Below, in pieces: positions 2,393 through 62,772 of a stretch of 64,000 nucleotides of DNA (positions are counted from its first letter, which is position 1; the number at the start of each line of letters is the position of its first letter). The position numbers were made by a program, and so were the translations under genes. Source of the stretch: Candidatus Nitrotoga sp. HW29 (GTDB lineage Bacteria; Pseudomonadota; Gammaproteobacteria; Burkholderiales; Gallionellaceae); NCBI RefSeq assembly GCF_924101635.2, contig NZ_CAKMAA020000006.1, forward strand, positions 1 through 64,000, in the 5' to 3' direction. Under the pieces are notes generated by a model. The model did no database searches. It was not told the origin of the DNA and saw only the letters and a program-made list of their open reading frames with translations.

Positions 2393-4693
2393 ATGGGGTA
2401 TGAACGCACGATGGCGTTATTGAGTAGCAAGCTTGAAAAACCCTCTCCGCTATCAGGTCGATTAGCTGCGTTGCTGCGCGAATCGCGCCTGCTGTTGCTG
2501 GTTGCAGTGGTAATTTATTTAATTCTAATTTTGTATGGTTATGATCGGAATGACCCTGCCTGGTCGAATAGTGCCAGCAATGCTGTACTGCATAATTCGG
2601 GCGGCGTGTTCGGTGCCTGGCTGGCGGACGTACTGTTGTATGTATTCGGTTTTTCTGCCTGGTGGTGGGTTGCATTTTTGTTGCAGCAGATATGGGTAGA
2701 TTATCGCGGTATATCGCAAAATAGTCTGTTCGATCGCCGTGCCTTATGGGTAGCGCTGATCGGCTTTGTCGTGTTGTTGCTGGCCAGTAGTTCATTGGAA
2801 GCGCTACGGCTGCATACACTGAAGGCTACGCTACCACTCGCGCCAGGCGGTATGTTGGGCATGGTGCTGGGTGACGGGTTGGCGCACTTGCTGGGCTTTA
2901 CCGGTGCTACGTTGTTTCTGTTGGTGTTAATGGCCATCGGGTTTAGTGTGTTCAGTGGTTTGTCGTGGTTGCGATTCATTGATCGATCAGGGGCCGCTCT
3001 TGAAGCCTTTTATTTCTGGGCGAGAAATGCTTGGGTGACCTGGCAGGACAAGCGTGTGGGTGCACAATCAGTAAATGAACGCCAGGTGGTGGTAGAAGAA
3101 GAAAAGAAACGTGTAGAGAACCATCTGCCGATATATATCGAGCAGCCACTGATTGAAGTGCGACAATCTGCGCGCGTGTCGGAAGAAAAACAGGTGCCCT
3201 TGTTTCCTGACATGCCGGATTCACCGCTGCCGCCATTGCATCTGCTGGATCAACCGGTGCATGAGGTTGAAATGTTGTCTGCCGACACGCTGGAATTTAC
3301 TTCGCGTTTGATTGAACGCAAACTCAAGGATTTTTGCGTGGAAGTGAAAGTGGTGGCAGCCTATCCGGGACCGGTTATCACGCGCTATGAGATCGAACCT
3401 GCAGTCGGGGTAAAGGGCAGTCAGATCACCAGTTTGGTGAGAGACTTGGCGCGCGCATTATCTGTAGTCAGTATTCGGGTGGTGGAAACGATCCCGGGAA
3501 AATCCTACATGGCGTTGGAACTGCCCAATCCGAAGCGGCAGATGGTGAGATTGTCCGAAATTCTCAGCTCGCAGGATTACGCGGGCATGAATTCGTCGCT
3601 CACGATGGCAATGGGCAAAGATATTTCCGGCAAACCTGTGGTTGCCGATCTGGGCAAGATGCCGCACGTTCTGGTGGCAGGTACCACCGGTTCTGGCAAG
3701 TCGGTGGCGATCAATGCCATGATTCTGAGCTTGCTCTACAAGGCCACGCCGCAGCAGGTACGACTATTGCTGGTTGATCCCAAGATGCTCGAACTATCCG
3801 TGTATGAAGGGATTCCACACCTGTTGGCGCCCGTGGTGACCGACATGCGCCAAGCTGCGTCTGCGCTTAACTGGTGCGTGCAGGAAATGGATAAGCGTTA
3901 TCGTCTGATGTCGTCCCTCGGCGTGCGTAACATCGCCGGTTACAACCAAAAAGTGCGCGATGCTATCAAGGCGGATCAACCGTTGACCAATCCCTTTACC
4001 CTGACTCCGGATAATCCCGAAGCGGCGGAAGAGTTACCGTTCATTGTGGTGTTTATTGACGAGTTGGCCGACTTGATGATGGTAGTGGGCAAGAAGGTCG
4101 AGGTGTTGATTGCGCGTTTGGCGCAGAAGGCGCGTGCTGCCGGTGTTCACCTGGTATTGGCGACGCAGCGTCCTTCGGTGGACGTTATTACTGGTTTGAT
4201 CAAGGCTAACGTGCCAACACGTGTGGCGTTCCAGGTGTCCAGCAAGATTGATTCGCGCACCATTCTCGATCAAATGGGTGCGGAGGCATTACTTGGCCAA
4301 GGCGACATGCTTTATTTACCGCCCGGTACCGGCTACCCACAGCGAGTGCATGGCGCCTTTGTTTCCGATCAGGAGGTGCACCGCGTGGCAGAGTATCTAA
4401 AAGCGCTGGGTGTGCCGCAATATGTCGAAGGCGTGCTAACTTCGTTGGATGAACTTGAAGCGGGCGGCGAAGTCGAAAGTGAAGGCGGCGTAGAAGCCGA
4501 TGCACTATATGATCAGGCGGTGGACATTGTGCTGAAATCGCGCCGCGCGTCTATCTCGCTGGTGCAGCGCCATTTGCGGATTGGCTACAATCGTGCCGCA
4601 CGCTTGGTAGAACAGATGGAACGCGCTGGCGTGGTGACGCCCATGCAGAGTAACGGCAACCGTGAAGTGATTGCACCTGCCAGGCAGGAGTAA
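2393..4693 (+). CDS. ftsK: DNA translocase FtsK
   Basis: FtsK is the septal DNA pump that clears and aligns chromosome termini and activates XerCD at dif. The product is 766 residues, the shorter form with a brief linker. Four hydrophobic segments in about residues 30-193 anchor it at the septum. A short charged linker follows, then the RecA-like motor with Walker A GTTGSGKS (430-437) and Walker B in [12 protein letters not shown]-terminal winged-helix gamma domain (about 703-761) reads KOPS sequences. The start is uncertain: ATG 2393 is used, but ATG 2411 gives a protein six residues shorter, and neither has a clear Shine-Dalgarno sequence. lolA follows after 66 bases, as in many proteobacteria (ftsK-lolA-rarA-serS). 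Confidence 0.95.
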
Positions 4694-4759
4694 GCAGTTA
4701 AACCCTGATTCATCTGGCATCTCCCGAAAAAGAGACGTGAATGCTTAAAGGAATTTCAC

Positions 4760-5371
4760 ATGTTCAGATTTTTTATTTTTTTATTTTTTGTTTTGCCTCT
4801 TTCAGCGTATGCCGGAGCCACCGATAAGCTGAAAAATTTCATTGCGTCTACGCATTCGGCACAGGCCAATTTCACTCAAGAAGTGCTGGATAAAGGTGGC
4901 AAGCGCATTCAGTCGGCTTCCGGCACAATGCAATTTGTACGACCCGGAAAATTTCGCTGGGTCTATCAGAAGCCTTTTGAACAATTGATTGTGGGCGATG
5001 GCGAGAAATTCTGGTTGCATGACGTGGAACTTAATCAGGTCACAGTAAAGAAAATAGATGCAGCATTGGGCAGTAGTCCTGCGGCACTTCTGTCTGGTAG
5101 CAATGAAATTGAGCGCGGTTTTGAGTTGAAAGATAACGGAATGAAGGATAGCCTCGAATGGCTGCAAGCTATGCCCCGTGCACAGGACACCAGCTTCGAG
5201 AAAATTCTTATGGCATTTAATGCGCAATCCGAGCTGATGATCATGGAATTGCAAGATGCCTTTGGTCATACCACTGTGCTTCGTTTTTCGAAGCTGCAAC
5301 GCAACCCGAAACTATCCCCGCAATTGTTCAAATTTGTACCGCCCAAAGGGGCGGACGTACTGGGTGAATAA
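4760..5371 (+). CDS. lolA: outer-membrane lipoprotein carrier LolA
   Basis: LolA is the periplasmic chaperone that takes lipoproteins from LolCDE and hands them to LolB in the outer membrane. The 203-residue product has a signal peptide with cleavage expected after AYA (residue 18). The mature part carries the LolA pattern: an ANFTQ region, a PGKFRW strand and YQKPFEQLIVGDGEKFW. AAAGGA about 8 bases before the ATG supports the start. It lies between ftsK and rarA in the conserved proteobacterial order and is probably cotranscribed with them. Confidence 0.95.
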   Translation: MFRFFIFLFFVLPLSAYAGATDKLKNFIASTHSAQANFTQEVLDKGGKRIQSASGTMQFVRPGKFRWVYQKPFEQLIVGDGEKFWLHDVELNQVTVKKIDAALGSSPAALLSGSNEIERGFELKDNGMKDSLEWLQAMPRAQDTSFEKILMAFNAQSELMIMELQDAFGHTTVLRFSKLQRNPKLSPQLFKFVPPKGADVLGE

Positions 5372-5427
5372 ATTTTTTCCCGATTTGGCTTGTTCGGGGA
5401 ATAAGATCATATTGTTATTTTCGGATT

Positions 5428-6756
5428 ATGTTTTCCTCGCGCGATAACCTGTTTGACCCACCTGCACCCGCTGCGCCCCTGGCCGAGCGTTTGCGTCCCA
5501 AGCACATCGATGAGGTGATCGGGCAAGCCCATCTGCTGGGTCCGGGTCGACCACTGCGCTTGGCGTTTGAATCAGGCAAGCTGCATTCCATGATTCTGTG
5601 GGGGCCACCCGGCGTGGGTAAGACCACTTTGGCCAGGCTCATGGCCTTGGCGTTTGATGCCGAATTTGTGCCGCTATCGGCAGTGCTATCCGGTGTGAAG
5701 GACATTCGCGATGCTATTGCGCAAGCGCAGCATACCTTGCAGCAGAGCGGGCGCCACACTATTTTGTTTGTGGACGAGGTACATCGCTTCAATAAATCGC
5801 AGCAGGATGCATTTCTGCCTTTCGTCGAACAAGGCTTGGTCACCTTCATCGGCGCGACCACCGAAAATCCTTCATTTGAAGTGATTAGCGCGTTGTTGTC
5901 ACGGGCCCAGGTTTATGTGTTGCAAGCCTTGTCAGAGGCTGAATTGAATCAACTGTTCAAACGCACGCAACAGCTTGCCTTACCGGATTTGGAATTTGAC
6001 GATGCGGTGCGTGAACGCATTATCGGCTATGCCGATGGCGATGCGCGCCGCTTGCTAAACGTGCTTGAGCAATTGCAAACCGCCGCTCAGGCCGCGCATA
6101 TTACGCATCTCAATGCCGATTTTCTGGACAAAACTTTGGCCCAGAATCTGCGTCGTTTCGACAAGGGCGGCGAAGCATTCTATGATCAGATCTCCGCATT
6201 GCATAAATCGGTGCGAGGTTCCAATCCCGATGCCGCTCTGTATTGGCTGGTGCGTATGCTGGATGGCGGTGCCGATCCGCGTTATCTGTCGCGGCGTATT
6301 GTGCGTATGGCATGGGAAGATATTGGCTTGGCCGATCCGCGCGCGATTCAATTAACGTTGAATGCCGCCCAGACCTACGAGCAATTAGGCTCGCCGGAAG
6401 GCGAGCTGGCATTGGCGCAGGCGGTGCTCTACCTGGCCGCTGCGGCCAAGTCGAATGCGGGTTATGTCGCGTATAATGCTGCCCGCGCCTTGGTCGCCCA
6501 AGACGGGTCGCGTCCGGTACCCTTGCATTTGCGCAATGCGCCAACCAAATTGATGAAACAGCTTGATTACGGCAAGGACTATCGTTACGCACACAATGAA
6601 ATGGAAGGCTATGCAGCCGGTGAAAGTTATTTTCCGGAGGACATGCCGGAGGTGAATTTTTACCAACCAGCCGAGCGAGGCCTTGAAGCAAAAATCGCGG
6701 AAAAACTGGCCCACCTCCGTGAGCTGGATGCTGCGGCAAAAAGAAATGAAAAATGA
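5428..6756 (+). CDS. rarA: replication-associated recombination ATPase RarA (MgsA)
   Basis: RarA is a clamp-loader-like AAA+ ATPase acting at stalled replication forks. The 442-residue product has the N-terminal PLAERLRP segment, Walker A GPPGVGKTT (59-67), Walker B DEVH (116-119), a sensor region GATTENPSFE and the C-terminal MgsA tetramerisation domain rich in Ala and Tyr. Length and motifs match full-length family members. It lies between lolA and serS, the same order as in E. coli. No strong ribosome binding site precedes the ATG, so translation may depend on readthrough from the upstream message. Confidence 0.93.
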   Translation: MFSSRDNLFDPPAPAAPLAERLRPKHIDEVIGQAHLLGPGRPLRLAFESGKLHSMILWGPPGVGKTTLARLMALAFDAEFVPLSAVLSGVKDIRDAIAQAQHTLQQSGRHTILFVDEVHRFNKSQQDAFLPFVEQGLVTFIGATTENPSFEVISALLSRAQVYVLQALSEAELNQLFKRTQQLALPDLEFDDAVRERIIGYADGDARRLLNVLEQLQTAAQAAHITHLNADFLDKTLAQNLRRFDKGGEAFYDQISALHKSVRGSNPDAALYWLVRMLDGGADPRYLSRRIVRMAWEDIGLADPRAIQLTLNAAQTYEQLGSPEGELALAQAVLYLAAAAKSNAGYVAYNAARALVAQDGSRPVPLHLRNAPTKLMKQLDYGKDYRYAHNEMEGYAAGESYFPEDMPEVNFYQPAERGLEAKIAEKLAHLRELDAAAKRNEK

Positions 6757-6769
6757 TTACAGCATGTGA

Positions 6770-8098
<1,329 letters not shown>

Positions 8099-30286: not shown

Positions 30287-30620
30287 TTCATTTTCTCTAT
30301 ATCCCTGTATCTATATAGTTCCAGTTCTGACTCAGCAGGCAATTGAACGATGCGCGACAAAGCTGTGTATTGTCCGACTACGTCTACGTTTAATTACTGC
30401 GGCTTGGGAACTGGTTTTGTCTCCCCTCTCGTTATGCCCAATTGTTTTCGTTGGATGTTAAACTTAAACCTTAGACTCATTAGCCAGATGAGTTGGGGGG
30501 TATTTATTAGGGGTGGCTAGATCCAAGGAATGGAGATATCCATGGTAATGCTGATGGGAATTGAGTTTTAGGTCACAATAGTTATATATTCAATCACCTT
30601 AATTACGAAGGAGAAATATC

Positions 30621-58320: not shown

Positions 58321-60305
<1,985 letters not shown>

Positions 60306-60316
60306 ATTGAGTTATA

Positions 60317-60510
60317 AGTTCAAGTACGTAATAGATGGGTATCATACCAACGTTTGTTCAAGGCAATAGCGTGAGCGAGCATTCATTACCTTGAATAAAA
60401 CAGTGCTTCCTGTTTCAATCCGCTTGTAAATATAAAACGATTACGGACAAAATATGATTCCTGTATCAGAAAGAATCGGCATCATCGGCGGTAGCGTGAT
60501 TTATAACATT
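60317..60510. repeat. 194-bp direct duplication, copy A
   Basis: This interval matches 61748-61941 without gaps at about 170 of 194 positions (24 mismatches counted by eye). It covers the nadE-mtnP intergenic region and the first 19 codons of mtnP, ending at ACATT. Copy A runs into unrelated sequence while copy B continues into the intact mtnP. The pair brackets the attC-like site and the HEPN gene. Confidence 0.9.
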
Positions 60511-60609
60511 AATTTAAAGGGAATAGCCTTGACATCACGCATCTGGCCTAACGTTGTGTCAAGACTTGCCTCCTTGATTTCAGCTGCAAAAATTAAGGCA
60601 GCGCCCTAA
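60454..60609 (+). pseudogene. truncated mtnP start with foreign tail
   Basis: Copy A of the duplication keeps the mtnP start codon and a divergent N-terminus (MIPVSERIGIIGGSVIYNIN). It then switches to an unrelated 31-codon tail and stops at a TAA lying inside the first core box of the attC-like site. A Gly of the nucleoside-binding loop is changed to Val. It is not a working phosphorylase. Whether the 51-residue peptide is made is unknown. Cassette genes often end at the attC box, so the tail may be the last piece of an older cassette gene. Confidence 0.6.
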
Positions 60610-60686
60610 CATGGTGCTCAACCTCGCTCCTTTCGCTGGGCGCTGCGCGATAAAGCCGCGCAGCGCTGGTTAGCTTTTCATTAGGT
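60604..60686 (+). other. attC-like integron recombination site
   Basis: The 83-bp segment has attC architecture. CCCTAAC (60604-60610, outer box) faces ATTAGGT (60680-60686). GCTCAACC (60616-60623) faces GGTTAGC (60668-60674) with one unpaired base, as expected for the extrahelical base. 5-base unpaired spacers lie between boxes on both sides. A perfect 10-bp GC-rich inner stem (60640-60649 with 60657-60666) caps it. Weak points are the A instead of G at the crossover box and a 16-base asymmetric interior. The HEPN gene starts 12 bases after it. No integrase or second attC is visible. Confidence 0.6.
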
Positions 60687-60698
60687 GTCAGGAATACC

Positions 60699-61730
60699 GT
60701 GCCCGGCGCCTCCTATCGCTTCCGACTCCGACTTGCGTGCAAGCGAACTGGCACGTTTGCCTTTTCGACACCGACCGCCTCAGTCCCAGTTTCGGATGGG
60801 CTGACGTTTGAGCTTTCTGCGCGGAACGCCGATTCACTTGACGAGGCAACTAACTTTCACTTTGATGGCGGCGGATTCCTCAGTGCGAATGAAGCGAGAC
60901 AAGCTGCCGAAGCTCTGCGAATCAGACTTCGACTGCTGAATGCGATTTTGGGACTAGGACTGAACATCCCGGTGGGCGACAAAGTCTCTTCTCAAGTATC
61001 GGAGGAGATCAAGACTAAATTGAAGTCAGAGCAAAACGCGACCGTGATCGACAGCATTTGGGGTGTCAGTGTCTATCCCGACGACGGGCTTCACTTCGAG
61101 TACATCCTAAGCGGAAACGTCGTTGTCAAACCAAGCGATCCTTCGTACATCCTCGACGGCCTCAAAACCATCTGGGATTTAGTTGTCTCCCTTGACTCAG
61201 CGTCTGAGGTCGCTCTCCACATTCTTTGTCTCGCCACACAGGAAACATCTGACAAGGCAAACTTTCTGACAAGCTACCTTGCACTTGAGCAGTTGGTCGA
61301 TCGCGAATCTCGCAGCACTGCAGCTCAAGCCGCCATTCGTAGATTCCAGGACGAACTAACATCGGCTGCGACAATCGAAAAGTCGTTGACTGATGCGGAA
61401 GTACGCTCTTTGAATGGAGCACTTGCCTCACTCAACGAGGAGTCGTTTCCCTCAGCGCTCACTCGATTGGGAACTCGCATCGCCACTCCAGCGCGCATCT
61501 GCGGTGTTACCCCCACCAAATTTCTTTCAGCCTGCATCTCGGCGCGAAACAAAATTGCACACCACGCTGAACCTGAGACGGAGATTCCTCTCGGGGAACT
61601 CGCTAAGGGCCTCCGTGAGTTCGTCCTCGGATTGATCTGGACGCGAAACAGCCTTCCTTCGTTTACGATGACCACGCCGCCGTCAGCAGTCAGCATTCCA
61701 TCTGGTGGCATGTCCATTCGCGTCATGTGA
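60699..61730 (+). CDS. HEPN-domain protein, putative cassette-borne toxin/defence gene
   Basis: I do not recognise a named family for the whole 343-residue product. Its C-terminal third (about 245-320) is helical and contains SARNKIAHH, where Arg283 and His288 form the R-x4-H motif of HEPN ribonucleases. The layout of a beta-rich N-terminus (about 1-170) followed by a C-terminal HEPN domain recalls ApeA-type abortive-infection proteins. AGGA lies 6 bases before the GTG start. No signal peptide or membrane span is present. Codon choice (many TTC, ATC and CTC) differs from the neighbours. It lies 12 bases after an attC-like site and between two copies of a chromosomal duplication, so recent acquisition is likely. 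Function is inferred only from motif and context. Confidence 0.65.
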   Translation: MPGASYRFRLRLACKRTGTFAFSTPTASVPVSDGLTFELSARNADSLDEATNFHFDGGGFLSANEARQAAEALRIRLRLLNAILGLGLNIPVGDKVSSQVSEEIKTKLKSEQNATVIDSIWGVSVYPDDGLHFEYILSGNVVVKPSDPSYILDGLKTIWDLVVSLDSASEVALHILCLATQETSDKANFLTSYLALEQLVDRESRSTAAQAAIRRFQDELTSAATIEKSLTDAEVRSLNGALASLNEESFPSALTRLGTRIATPARICGVTPTKFLSACISARNKIAHHAEPETEIPLGELAKGLREFVLGLIWTRNSLPSFTMTTPPSAVSIPSGGMSIRVM

Positions 61731-61747
61731 GCCCAAGCCGCTCGCTG

Positions 61748-61941
61748 AGTTCAAGTAGGTAATGGGTGGGTATCATACCAACGTTTGTTAAAGGCAATAG
61801 CGTGGGCAAGCATTCATTGTATTGAATAAAACTGTACTTCCTGTTTCAATCCGCTTGTAAAAATAAAATAATTACGGACAAGTCATGATTGATGTACCAG
61901 AAAGAATCGGCATAATCGGCGGCAGCGGGATTTATGACATT
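61748..61941. repeat. 194-bp direct duplication, copy B
   Basis: This is the partner of 60317-60510. It begins 18 bases after the HEPN gene stop and contains the promoter region, ribosome binding site and first codons of intact mtnP. Confidence 0.9.
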
Positions 61942-62772
61942 GCCGGGTTGACCAACAAGCGCTGGGAAAAGGTCACTTCGCCTTTTGGAGAACCATCCAG
62001 CGAGTTATTGTTCGGTGAGCTGGACGGCCACAATATTGTGTTTTTGCCTCGTCATGGTCGCGGACATAGAGTTCCGCCGACCGAAATCAATTTTCACGCC
62101 AATATCGACGTGCTGAAGCGGGTAGGGGTGACTGATGTCATTTCAGTTAGTGCCGTTGGTTCCTTGCGCGAGGACTTGCCGCCGGGTACGTTCGTGATTG
62201 TTGATCAATTTATTGATCGTACTTTTGCGCGTAATAAGTCTTTTTTTGGTACGGGATTGGTGGCGCATGTTTCCATGGCACATCCTGTTTGCAAAAGGCT
62301 GGGCGATCATATTGAAAGGGCCGCGAGAGAGGCAAATATCCCTGTTGTTCGTGGCGGGACCTATCTGGTTATGGAAGGGCCGCAGTTTTCCAGTCTGGCT
62401 GAGTCGAATCTTTATCGTACCTGGGGGTGTGATGTCATTGGCATGACCAACATGCCAGAGGCCAAGCTCGCCCGCGAGGCAGAGTTGTGTTACGCCACCG
62501 TGGCGATGGTGACTGACTATGACTGTTGGCATCCCGACCATGAGCATGTCACGGTCGGGCAGATCATCAAGATGCTCACCGAAAATGCGGATAAGGCGAA
62601 AACGCTGGTAACGCACGTTGTTCCGAAAGTGCGCACTGATGCGCTGGCTGATGTCTGTAGCTGTCGCTCGACATTGGAATTCGCGCTCATTACTGCACCG
62701 GAAGCGCGTGATGCAGCCATGATTGAAAAGCTGGATGCGATTGCGGGTCGGGTGTTGAAGGGTAAGTCATGA
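61885..62772 (+). CDS. mtnP: S-methyl-5'-thioadenosine phosphorylase
   Basis: MtnP splits methylthioadenosine, a by-product of polyamine and homoserine-lactone synthesis, to adenine and methylthioribose-1-phosphate. It often also accepts 5'-deoxyadenosine. The 295-residue product has the phosphate loop IGGSGIYD (residues 10-17), PRHGRGHRVPPTEINF, MEGPQFSS and IGMTNMPEAKLAREAELCYA, the MTAP signatures that separate it from purine nucleoside phosphorylase. The aldolase gene overlaps its stop by 4 bases. The first codons are duplicated at 60454. Confidence 0.95.
   Translation: MIDVPERIGIIGGSGIYDIAGLTNKRWEKVTSPFGEPSSELLFGELDGHNIVFLPRHGRGHRVPPTEINFHANIDVLKRVGVTDVISVSAVGSLREDLPPGTFVIVDQFIDRTFARNKSFFGTGLVAHVSMAHPVCKRLGDHIERAAREANIPVVRGGTYLVMEGPQFSSLAESNLYRTWGCDVIGMTNMPEAKLAREAELCYATVAMVTDYDCWHPDHEHVTVGQIIKMLTENADKAKTLVTHVVPKVRTDALADVCSCRSTLEFALITAPEARDAAMIEKLDAIAGRVLKGKS

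Follow-up and report, generated by a model that had tools for sequence, protein, structure and literature searches.

In the window analysed here, a stretch of 64,000 nucleotides from Candidatus Nitrotoga sp. HW29, a gene for a HEPN-like protein lies between nadE and mtnP, and it is interpreted with moderate confidence as an integron-cassette gene, separated from any working integron, which encodes a single-chain HEPN effector. The presence of a HEPN domain in this protein is considered highly probable. The larger point concerns the place in which the gene is found, a chromosomal site that holds unrelated cargo, integron cassettes included, between copies of the 5' end of a neighbouring gene.

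The features of the gene and of its surroundings are collected in Table 1. The initial annotation had placed a HEPN gene at 60604-61730, which gives the correct end of the ORF, but 60604 is the start of the attC site and the gene itself begins at 60699. Its other statements on the immediate setting agree with the present analysis: the protein has 343 residues with a C-terminal Rx4H motif in which Arg283 and His288 are both present, 12 bases (60687-60698) separate the end of the attC site from the start codon, and no antitoxin-like gene of the kind expected in a type II toxin-antitoxin system adjoins the gene, its only neighbours being nadE and mtnP. No promoter-like site was found in 60250-61900, the attC site scored as terminator-like at the chance rate, and Rfam gave no match.

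Table 1. Features of the nadE-mtnP interval in the window
Feature	Position	Strand	Basis or remark
nadE (NAD+ synthase), left border of the hotspot	58701..60305	-	
194-bp repeat, left copy (decayed), spanning the region upstream of mtnP and the first 19 codons of the gene	60317..60510	+	
Remnant of the 66-bp palindrome ('seg') that flanks cargo in relatives	60525..60581	+	
attC site, R'' CCCTAAC, R' ATTAGGT	60604..60686	+	Covariance model of attC sites of the genus
Likely ribosome-binding site AGGAA	60690..60694	+	Within the gap between attC and start codon; read by eye
ORF for the HEPN-like protein, complete	60699..61730	+	GTG start, 343 aa
C-terminal helical HEPN-like region, ~residues 161-320	61179..61658	+	Weak profile matches, hhalign, HMM against shuffles, structural alignments
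Rx4H motif, R283-N-K-I-A-H288	61545..61562	+	Sequence; alignment with the relative
Right junction, like the flank beside the right repeat of relatives; no attC match	61731..61747	+	
194-bp repeat, right copy, running on into intact mtnP	61748..61941	+	
Intact mtnP (S-methyl-5'-thioadenosine phosphorylase), bordering the hotspot on the right	61885..62772	+	

The gene is linked to integrons by the attC site directly upstream of it. A covariance model trained on 11 attC sites from other members of the genus, and not on the window site, assigned the latter 79.6 bits (E 5.7e-20 in its own genome), making it the only match at E ≤ 0.001 in that 2.99-Mb genome among the best 150 of ~1,640 candidates. 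Since only the best 150 of ~1,640 candidates were scored per genome, genome-wide counts are lower bounds: at least 101 sites at E ≤ 0.001 were found over 19 genomes, 18 of which carry them. Some of these adjoin integron integrases (e.g. at G043:C22 and G076:C96), and the window site is of the same type. It possesses R'', L'', L' and R' boxes, the layout of attC sites being given in PMC8946536, and the ORF lies directly behind it, as in a cassette. A further match at 30325-30394 of the window is weak (19.1 bits) and intergenic, with no cassette gene seen beside it, and is probably a chance match or a relic.

Behind the HEPN-like gene, no attC match was obtained from 61731 to mtnP at E up to 10, indicating a cassette-derived gene rather than an intact cassette. 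The bases at 61731-61741 resemble those past the stop codon of the relative described below and were considered as the start of the gene's own attC, a reading that was ruled out because the sequence runs on into the flank of the right repeat of relatives; it is possible that a short-homology deletion removed the cassette attC together with the right palindrome. The R' core of the upstream site is altered, with ATT in a position where the first G is found in 11/11 and GTT in 10/11 of the sites in the model. This change is not unique, as a site excluded from the model (L072) also has ATT at R'. The only integron-integrase match over the family cut-off in the genome, at G000:C93:20561-21502, contains one TGA, which may be a sequencing error, and an integrase may also be missing from the draft. 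In the surrounding region (L076, G000:C93:14000-26000; positions 4250-7506), the integrase remnant stands beside transposase-like and phage-type integrase ORFs, named by eye. Given the lack of a downstream attC, the altered attC core and the stop codon in the only integrase match, the gene looks like what is left of a cassette, stranded in a genome that may no longer have a live integron. The integron-cassette gene proposed by the initial annotation is thus retained with regard to the true attC upstream, but it appears to be a stranded remnant in a nadE-mtnP hotspot and not a member of an integron array.

One relative of the protein was found, in a Sulfuritalea MAG (L022), by a scan of genome contigs for short peptide patterns through which distant relatives can be missed; it shows 67% identity and its end falls at the same residue. 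No further relative was detected in 149 other genomes of the family, 368 of the class and 397 of the phylum (overlapping samples), nor in IMG/VR, phage and plasmid records. Comparison of the two genes gives identities of 74, 80 and 36% at codon positions 1, 2 and 3, a dN of ~0.27 and saturated synonymous sites, on the basis of which the HEPN-like ORF is judged to be a real gene. Values of pN (0.23) and pS (0.76) are similar in both halves, which indicates that both protein halves are under purifying selection. R283, N284 and H288, corresponding to Rx4-6H with a polar residue after R, are kept in both proteins (two sequences only), the Rx4H lies within a run of 13 identical residues (ARNKIAHHAEPET), and the longest identical run, R76-S97, belongs to the N-terminal half.

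The surroundings of the relative contain weak attC-like matches. In a five-source search, the upstream match (5906-5972) reached 12.3 bits (E 0.75) and the downstream match (7035-7113) reached 17.4 bits (E 0.02), whereas in the whole-genome search the downstream match had E 0.97 and the upstream match was absent at E up to 1. In the Sulfuritalea MAG as a whole, 12 or more sites of the window's attC type reach E < 0.001 (best 94.2 bits), which makes an exchange of cassettes between the two lineages plausible. Within ~2.2 kb of the relative are an addiction-module antidote gene with a sub-threshold Gp49-like partner, as well as a ParE/antitoxin pair. The initial annotation had named two observations on homologues that would speak against its proposal, namely loss of R283/H288 and occurrence in housekeeping contexts only; the only relative found has kept both residues and is accompanied by weak attC-like matches and nearby toxin-antitoxin genes.

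In the proposed mechanism, the C-terminal HEPN domain would dimerise, with R283 and H288 forming a metal-independent RNase site, as expected from the HEPN superfamily, in which domains with Rx4-6H are described as metal-independent RNases (PMC3710099). The N-terminal part of ~150 residues would keep the protein inactive until a trigger such as phage infection or stress is sensed, a controlling role for this part being likely because no antitoxin is found beside the gene. The HEPN fold, the RNase activity, the trigger and a role in abortive infection or dormancy are inferred. A role in phage defence is plausible, if tentative, given that at least 16 of 179 V. cholerae cassettes provided protection against phage (as reviewed in PMC12409362).

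A competing interpretation, which appears somewhat unlikely, is that of a cassette-borne HEPN RNase serving stress dormancy or integron stabilisation, for which any phage-defence effect would be incidental. A dormancy role has been proposed for another integron-cassette HEPN family (PDB 3jrt; Anantharaman et al. 2013, PMC3710099), 19 toxin-antitoxin cassettes are reported from the V. cholerae chromosomal integron (PMC11023631), and toxin-antitoxin genes lie near the Sulfuritalea relative. However, the antitoxins near the relative pair with other toxins, the window gene has no adjoining antitoxin and a free toxin would need self-control, and the V. cholerae cassettes mean that defence is no remote prior.

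Evidence for the HEPN fold is weak but concordant across methods. The Pfam model HEPN_Apea (PF18739) scored 12.5 bits (E 0.21) with the window protein, second in a match list headed by the unrelated and weak TraF_2 (E 0.066), and 14.7 bits (E 0.043) with the relative, for which it was the top match, followed by HEPN_RiboL-PSP; the cut-off of HEPN_Apea is 24.4. Cas13-ApeA was the only PADLOC match of the window protein and was non-significant (E 0.059), NCBIfam gave no match for it, PHROGs gave only weak matches of unknown function, and no family library reached its curated cut-off. Such a protein would be passed over by Pfam and PADLOC models, being below the cut-off in the former and non-significant in the latter. 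The HMM comparison with Apea_HEPN that the initial annotation had suggested thus remains below the cut-off for both proteins. In view of these scores and of an N-terminal part of ~150 aa instead of ~300, membership in the ApeA family is not supported, and the protein would best be filed with integron-cassette HEPN proteins.

Further comparisons were made with six Apea-type proteins from the same family of bacteria. With hhalign, RNKIAHH was aligned with RNYLTHY (E 0.0033, probability 9.6%), and against a four-row Apea-type alignment the probability was 0.6% and the motif was not aligned. An HMM of the six proteins gave 6.3 bits for the window protein, reached by 0/2000 shuffles, with a small margin over the best other window ORF (5.7 bits; 42 given, 32 reported), and 7.4 bits for the relative, reached by 1/2000 shuffles. 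A PDB sequence search yielded no HEPN-named chain, 3jrt included, at E up to 10. Many HEPN families have a second conserved acidic residue in the form Ex3[KR] (PMC3710099); E197 is conserved here, and in the window protein the basic residue follows after x4 (LEQLVDR) instead of x3.

Structure prediction provided models of low confidence. The full-length model is poor (mean pLDDT 39.8), and that of residues 148-320 has a mean pLDDT of 54.3, with values of 61-77 in ten-residue blocks over its residues 21-50 and 121-170, which hold most of the four helices of the would-be HEPN core. R283/H288 are found at the end of helix 272-287 in this weak model, and in the HEPN fold the motif is expected to end the third core helix (PMC3710099). 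Foldseek against the PDB gave a best E of 0.54 and no HEPN among the 50 matches listed, and against viral models it gave nothing significant, with one HEPN among the 50 matches listed (E 3.3). When 719 Foldseek PDB chains were realigned, a procedure in which the absence of a family proves nothing, HEPN-named chains took ranks 1 (8xeh), 2 (8yuf), 4 (8xdj), 5 (3o10) and 9 (7ae8) with Z of 5.3-6.3, and HepS of a Salmonella prophage, which we take to be a HEPN protein, appeared at ranks 13 and 34. Unrelated helical chains, including a Roquin domain, two HopQ megabodies, a designed protein and rhodopsins, followed close behind (Z 4.8-5.9). For a helical bundle a Z of 5-6 is low, and widespread ways of packing helices can produce such values.

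That the C-terminal helical region is not HEPN, with RNKIAHH as a chance occurrence in a protein of other function, is considered very unlikely. Such a chance occurrence would not be surprising in itself, since R[NDH]x3H is present in 4/43 non-overlapping window ORFs of at least 150 aa (the HEPN-like ORF included), and it would be compatible with the low-confidence models, the Foldseek matches to the PDB and the lack of any library match over the cut-off. Against it, several weak sequence signals converge on one HEPN group with the motif in register, HEPN chains lead the structural realignment, and the motif is placed inside the 13 identical residues. A HEPN fold is likely, in line with the initial annotation.

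The insert that carries the HEPN-like gene sits between two copies of a ~194-bp repeat that are 88% identical, and in empty genomes this segment is single-copy, extending from just after nadE to mtnP codon 19. Nine of the 19 genomes of the genus were taken as filled (G000, G055, G064, G008, G051, G039, G043, G026 and G073), of which the window genome (G000) and seven others were read within one contig and G073 was assigned from two contigs. Five are empty (G033, G076, G047, G061 and G082), and the remaining five were left unclassed, three having no mtnP match in the stretch examined (G018, G058 and G079) and two being left out (G067 and G070). The distance from nadE to mtnP is 1.5-6.1 kb in seven filled relatives and ~1.6 kb in the window; in the five empty genomes it is 203-208 bases. 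Repeat copies are cut or strongly diverged in G043 and G026 (66% and 72%), and G051 contains two tandem units with a partial repeat between them. The initial annotation had recognised the attC of this setting but missed the genus-wide nadE-mtnP hotspot with its duplicated mtnP 5' ends. That assembly or binning has wrongly joined two strains at the repeat is hardly credible, for although assemblies can misjoin at repeats 88% similar and the window genome is a 96-contig draft, its stated contamination is 0.17% and the order repeat-insert-repeat is found within one contig in seven other genomes, with G055 and G064 being single-contig assemblies.

The cargo of the hotspot is typically flanked by a near-perfect palindrome of 66 bp, whose consensus folds at -37.6 kcal/mol, a value attained by 0/200 shuffles. 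In 9/9 filled genomes a palindrome stands at the left end of the insert or close to it (cut or decayed in the window and G026). A second one, near the right end, is present in 7/9; it has decayed in G008 and G026, is inverted in G039 and is lacking from the window and G043. A REP-like GTTGGGCTTCGC element precedes the right repeat copy in 7/9 filled genomes and is absent in the window and G026. Single copies of the palindrome are likewise found at other places in several genomes of the genus (L078-L084), and around seven other palindrome loci no repeat pair like that of nadE-mtnP was detected, the only repeats being a tandem array in L080 and two repeat pairs in L082 (80 and 48 nt). It may represent a MITE, a REP or a terminator; a role as an IntI target was considered and dropped, as G055, G064, G051 and G039 have an intact palindrome at either side of the cargo.

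The inserts themselves are largely unrelated. According to blastn (E ≤ 0.001), they share no DNA besides the palindromes, attC sites and one 56-bp stretch, and none of the 20 cargo proteins compared across species matches that of another species at E ≤ 0.01. A strong attC is present in at least three of the nine inserts (G000, G051 and G073), that of G051 having been in the training set of the covariance model, and weaker matches occur in the inserts of G039 (21 bits) and G064 (17.7 bits). The 56-bp stretch, ~95% identical between G051 (L026) and G073 (L030), follows the palindrome and ends in a GTT-containing box directly before the cargo gene, the cargo genes behind it being unrelated; it may be the right part of another attC. 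As to orientation, 21/26 ORFs listed for the nine inserts (70 aa or longer) point towards mtnP, as do 17/20 of those taken as cargo (the window gene and 19 others, six having been dropped by judgement).

Functionally, the cargo includes a T5orf172/GIY-YIG protein and a protein with a sub-threshold cupin match. A PemK/MazF-like toxin gene (E 5.6e-13) is found in G051 (L026, 2895-3293), and no antitoxin for it was recognised among the insert ORFs of at least 70 aa listed. The 6-kb insert of G043 (L028, 2047-6638) encodes a SAM decarboxylase, a methyltransferase, two SET proteins and a deoxyhypusine-synthase-like protein. In G008 (L025, 2230-2691), a 154-aa cargo protein contains an RDQIHAH stretch and has no Pfam match at E 0.05; judged from this stretch, it is possibly another HEPN-like cargo at nadE-mtnP.

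With respect to the way in which cargo reached the hotspot, one proposal, regarded as distinctly unlikely, is that circular cassettes, each bringing a 194-bp mtnP arm of its own, dock in the nadE-mtnP interval. In this process, a single crossover between the arm of the circle and the chromosome, mediated by homology or by a recombinase, would insert the cargo, leave a broken mtnP start on the left and, on the right, restore mtnP in full together with its upstream region, and transcription from the left repeat copy may enter the cargo, comparable to that from Pc in integrons. The docking site would then be an integrase-free analogue of an integron, partly fed by real integron cassettes, with the HEPN gene as one cargo among others. 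One old tandem duplication followed by cargo exchange via flanking homology would give an identical layout. The tree of the 194-bp repeats is unresolved, and 7/8 left copies are closer to the copy of another species than to the right copy of the same genome, so that a single ancestral duplication with later exchange is indistinguishable from repeated gain. In this tree the label E is given to the left copy of G073, though G073 was taken as filled. An old split of the repeats into a left clade and a right clade is not borne out by this tree. Cassette insertion at attG sites, reportedly described by Loot et al. in 2024, would not explain the 194-bp repeats. If the site does gain cargo by a shared mechanism, cassettes would become fixed outside integrons with the neighbouring gene unharmed.

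A search of papers on HEPN, integron cassettes and phage defence did not show the gene described, which is no proof of absence, and nothing on point was listed on Gallionella or Nitrotoga integrons. HEPN proteins in integron cassettes are listed by Anantharaman et al. 2013 (PMC3710099) and anti-phage integron cassettes were reported in 2025 (reviewed in PMC12409362). The gene would best be classed with a known kind, that of integron-cassette HEPN proteins; the hotspot is the more novel of the two, its docking role being hypothetical. Like the integron-cassette HEPN family of PDB 3jrt, for which an RNase activity has been proposed (PMC3710099), the window protein is a cassette-borne Rx4H protein, but it has no PDB sequence match to 3jrt, its gene is stranded outside an integron, and it consists of two parts with a separate N-terminal half. 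With ApeA and HEPN_Apea it shares a HEPN-like C-terminal region, preceded by an N-terminal part in which strands are predicted, as well as weak profile similarity with RN-x3-H in register, whereas its N-terminal part comprises ~150-160 aa and ApeA-NTD1 comprises ~300 aa (PMC3710099). The anti-phage integron cassettes of Darracq et al. 2025 and of a mobile-integron study (both per PMC12409362) are similar in being single-gene cassettes without an assigned function, but the window gene is located outside an array with no integrase beside it. Finally, the CALIN arrays of Xanthomonas (PMC12444791) also represent integrase-free cassette material at the same place in several species. Their threshold is at least two attC sites, against one in the window insert, and the nadE-mtnP site further differs in having borders formed by a duplicated mtnP 5' segment and palindromes, with cargo that is unrelated between species.
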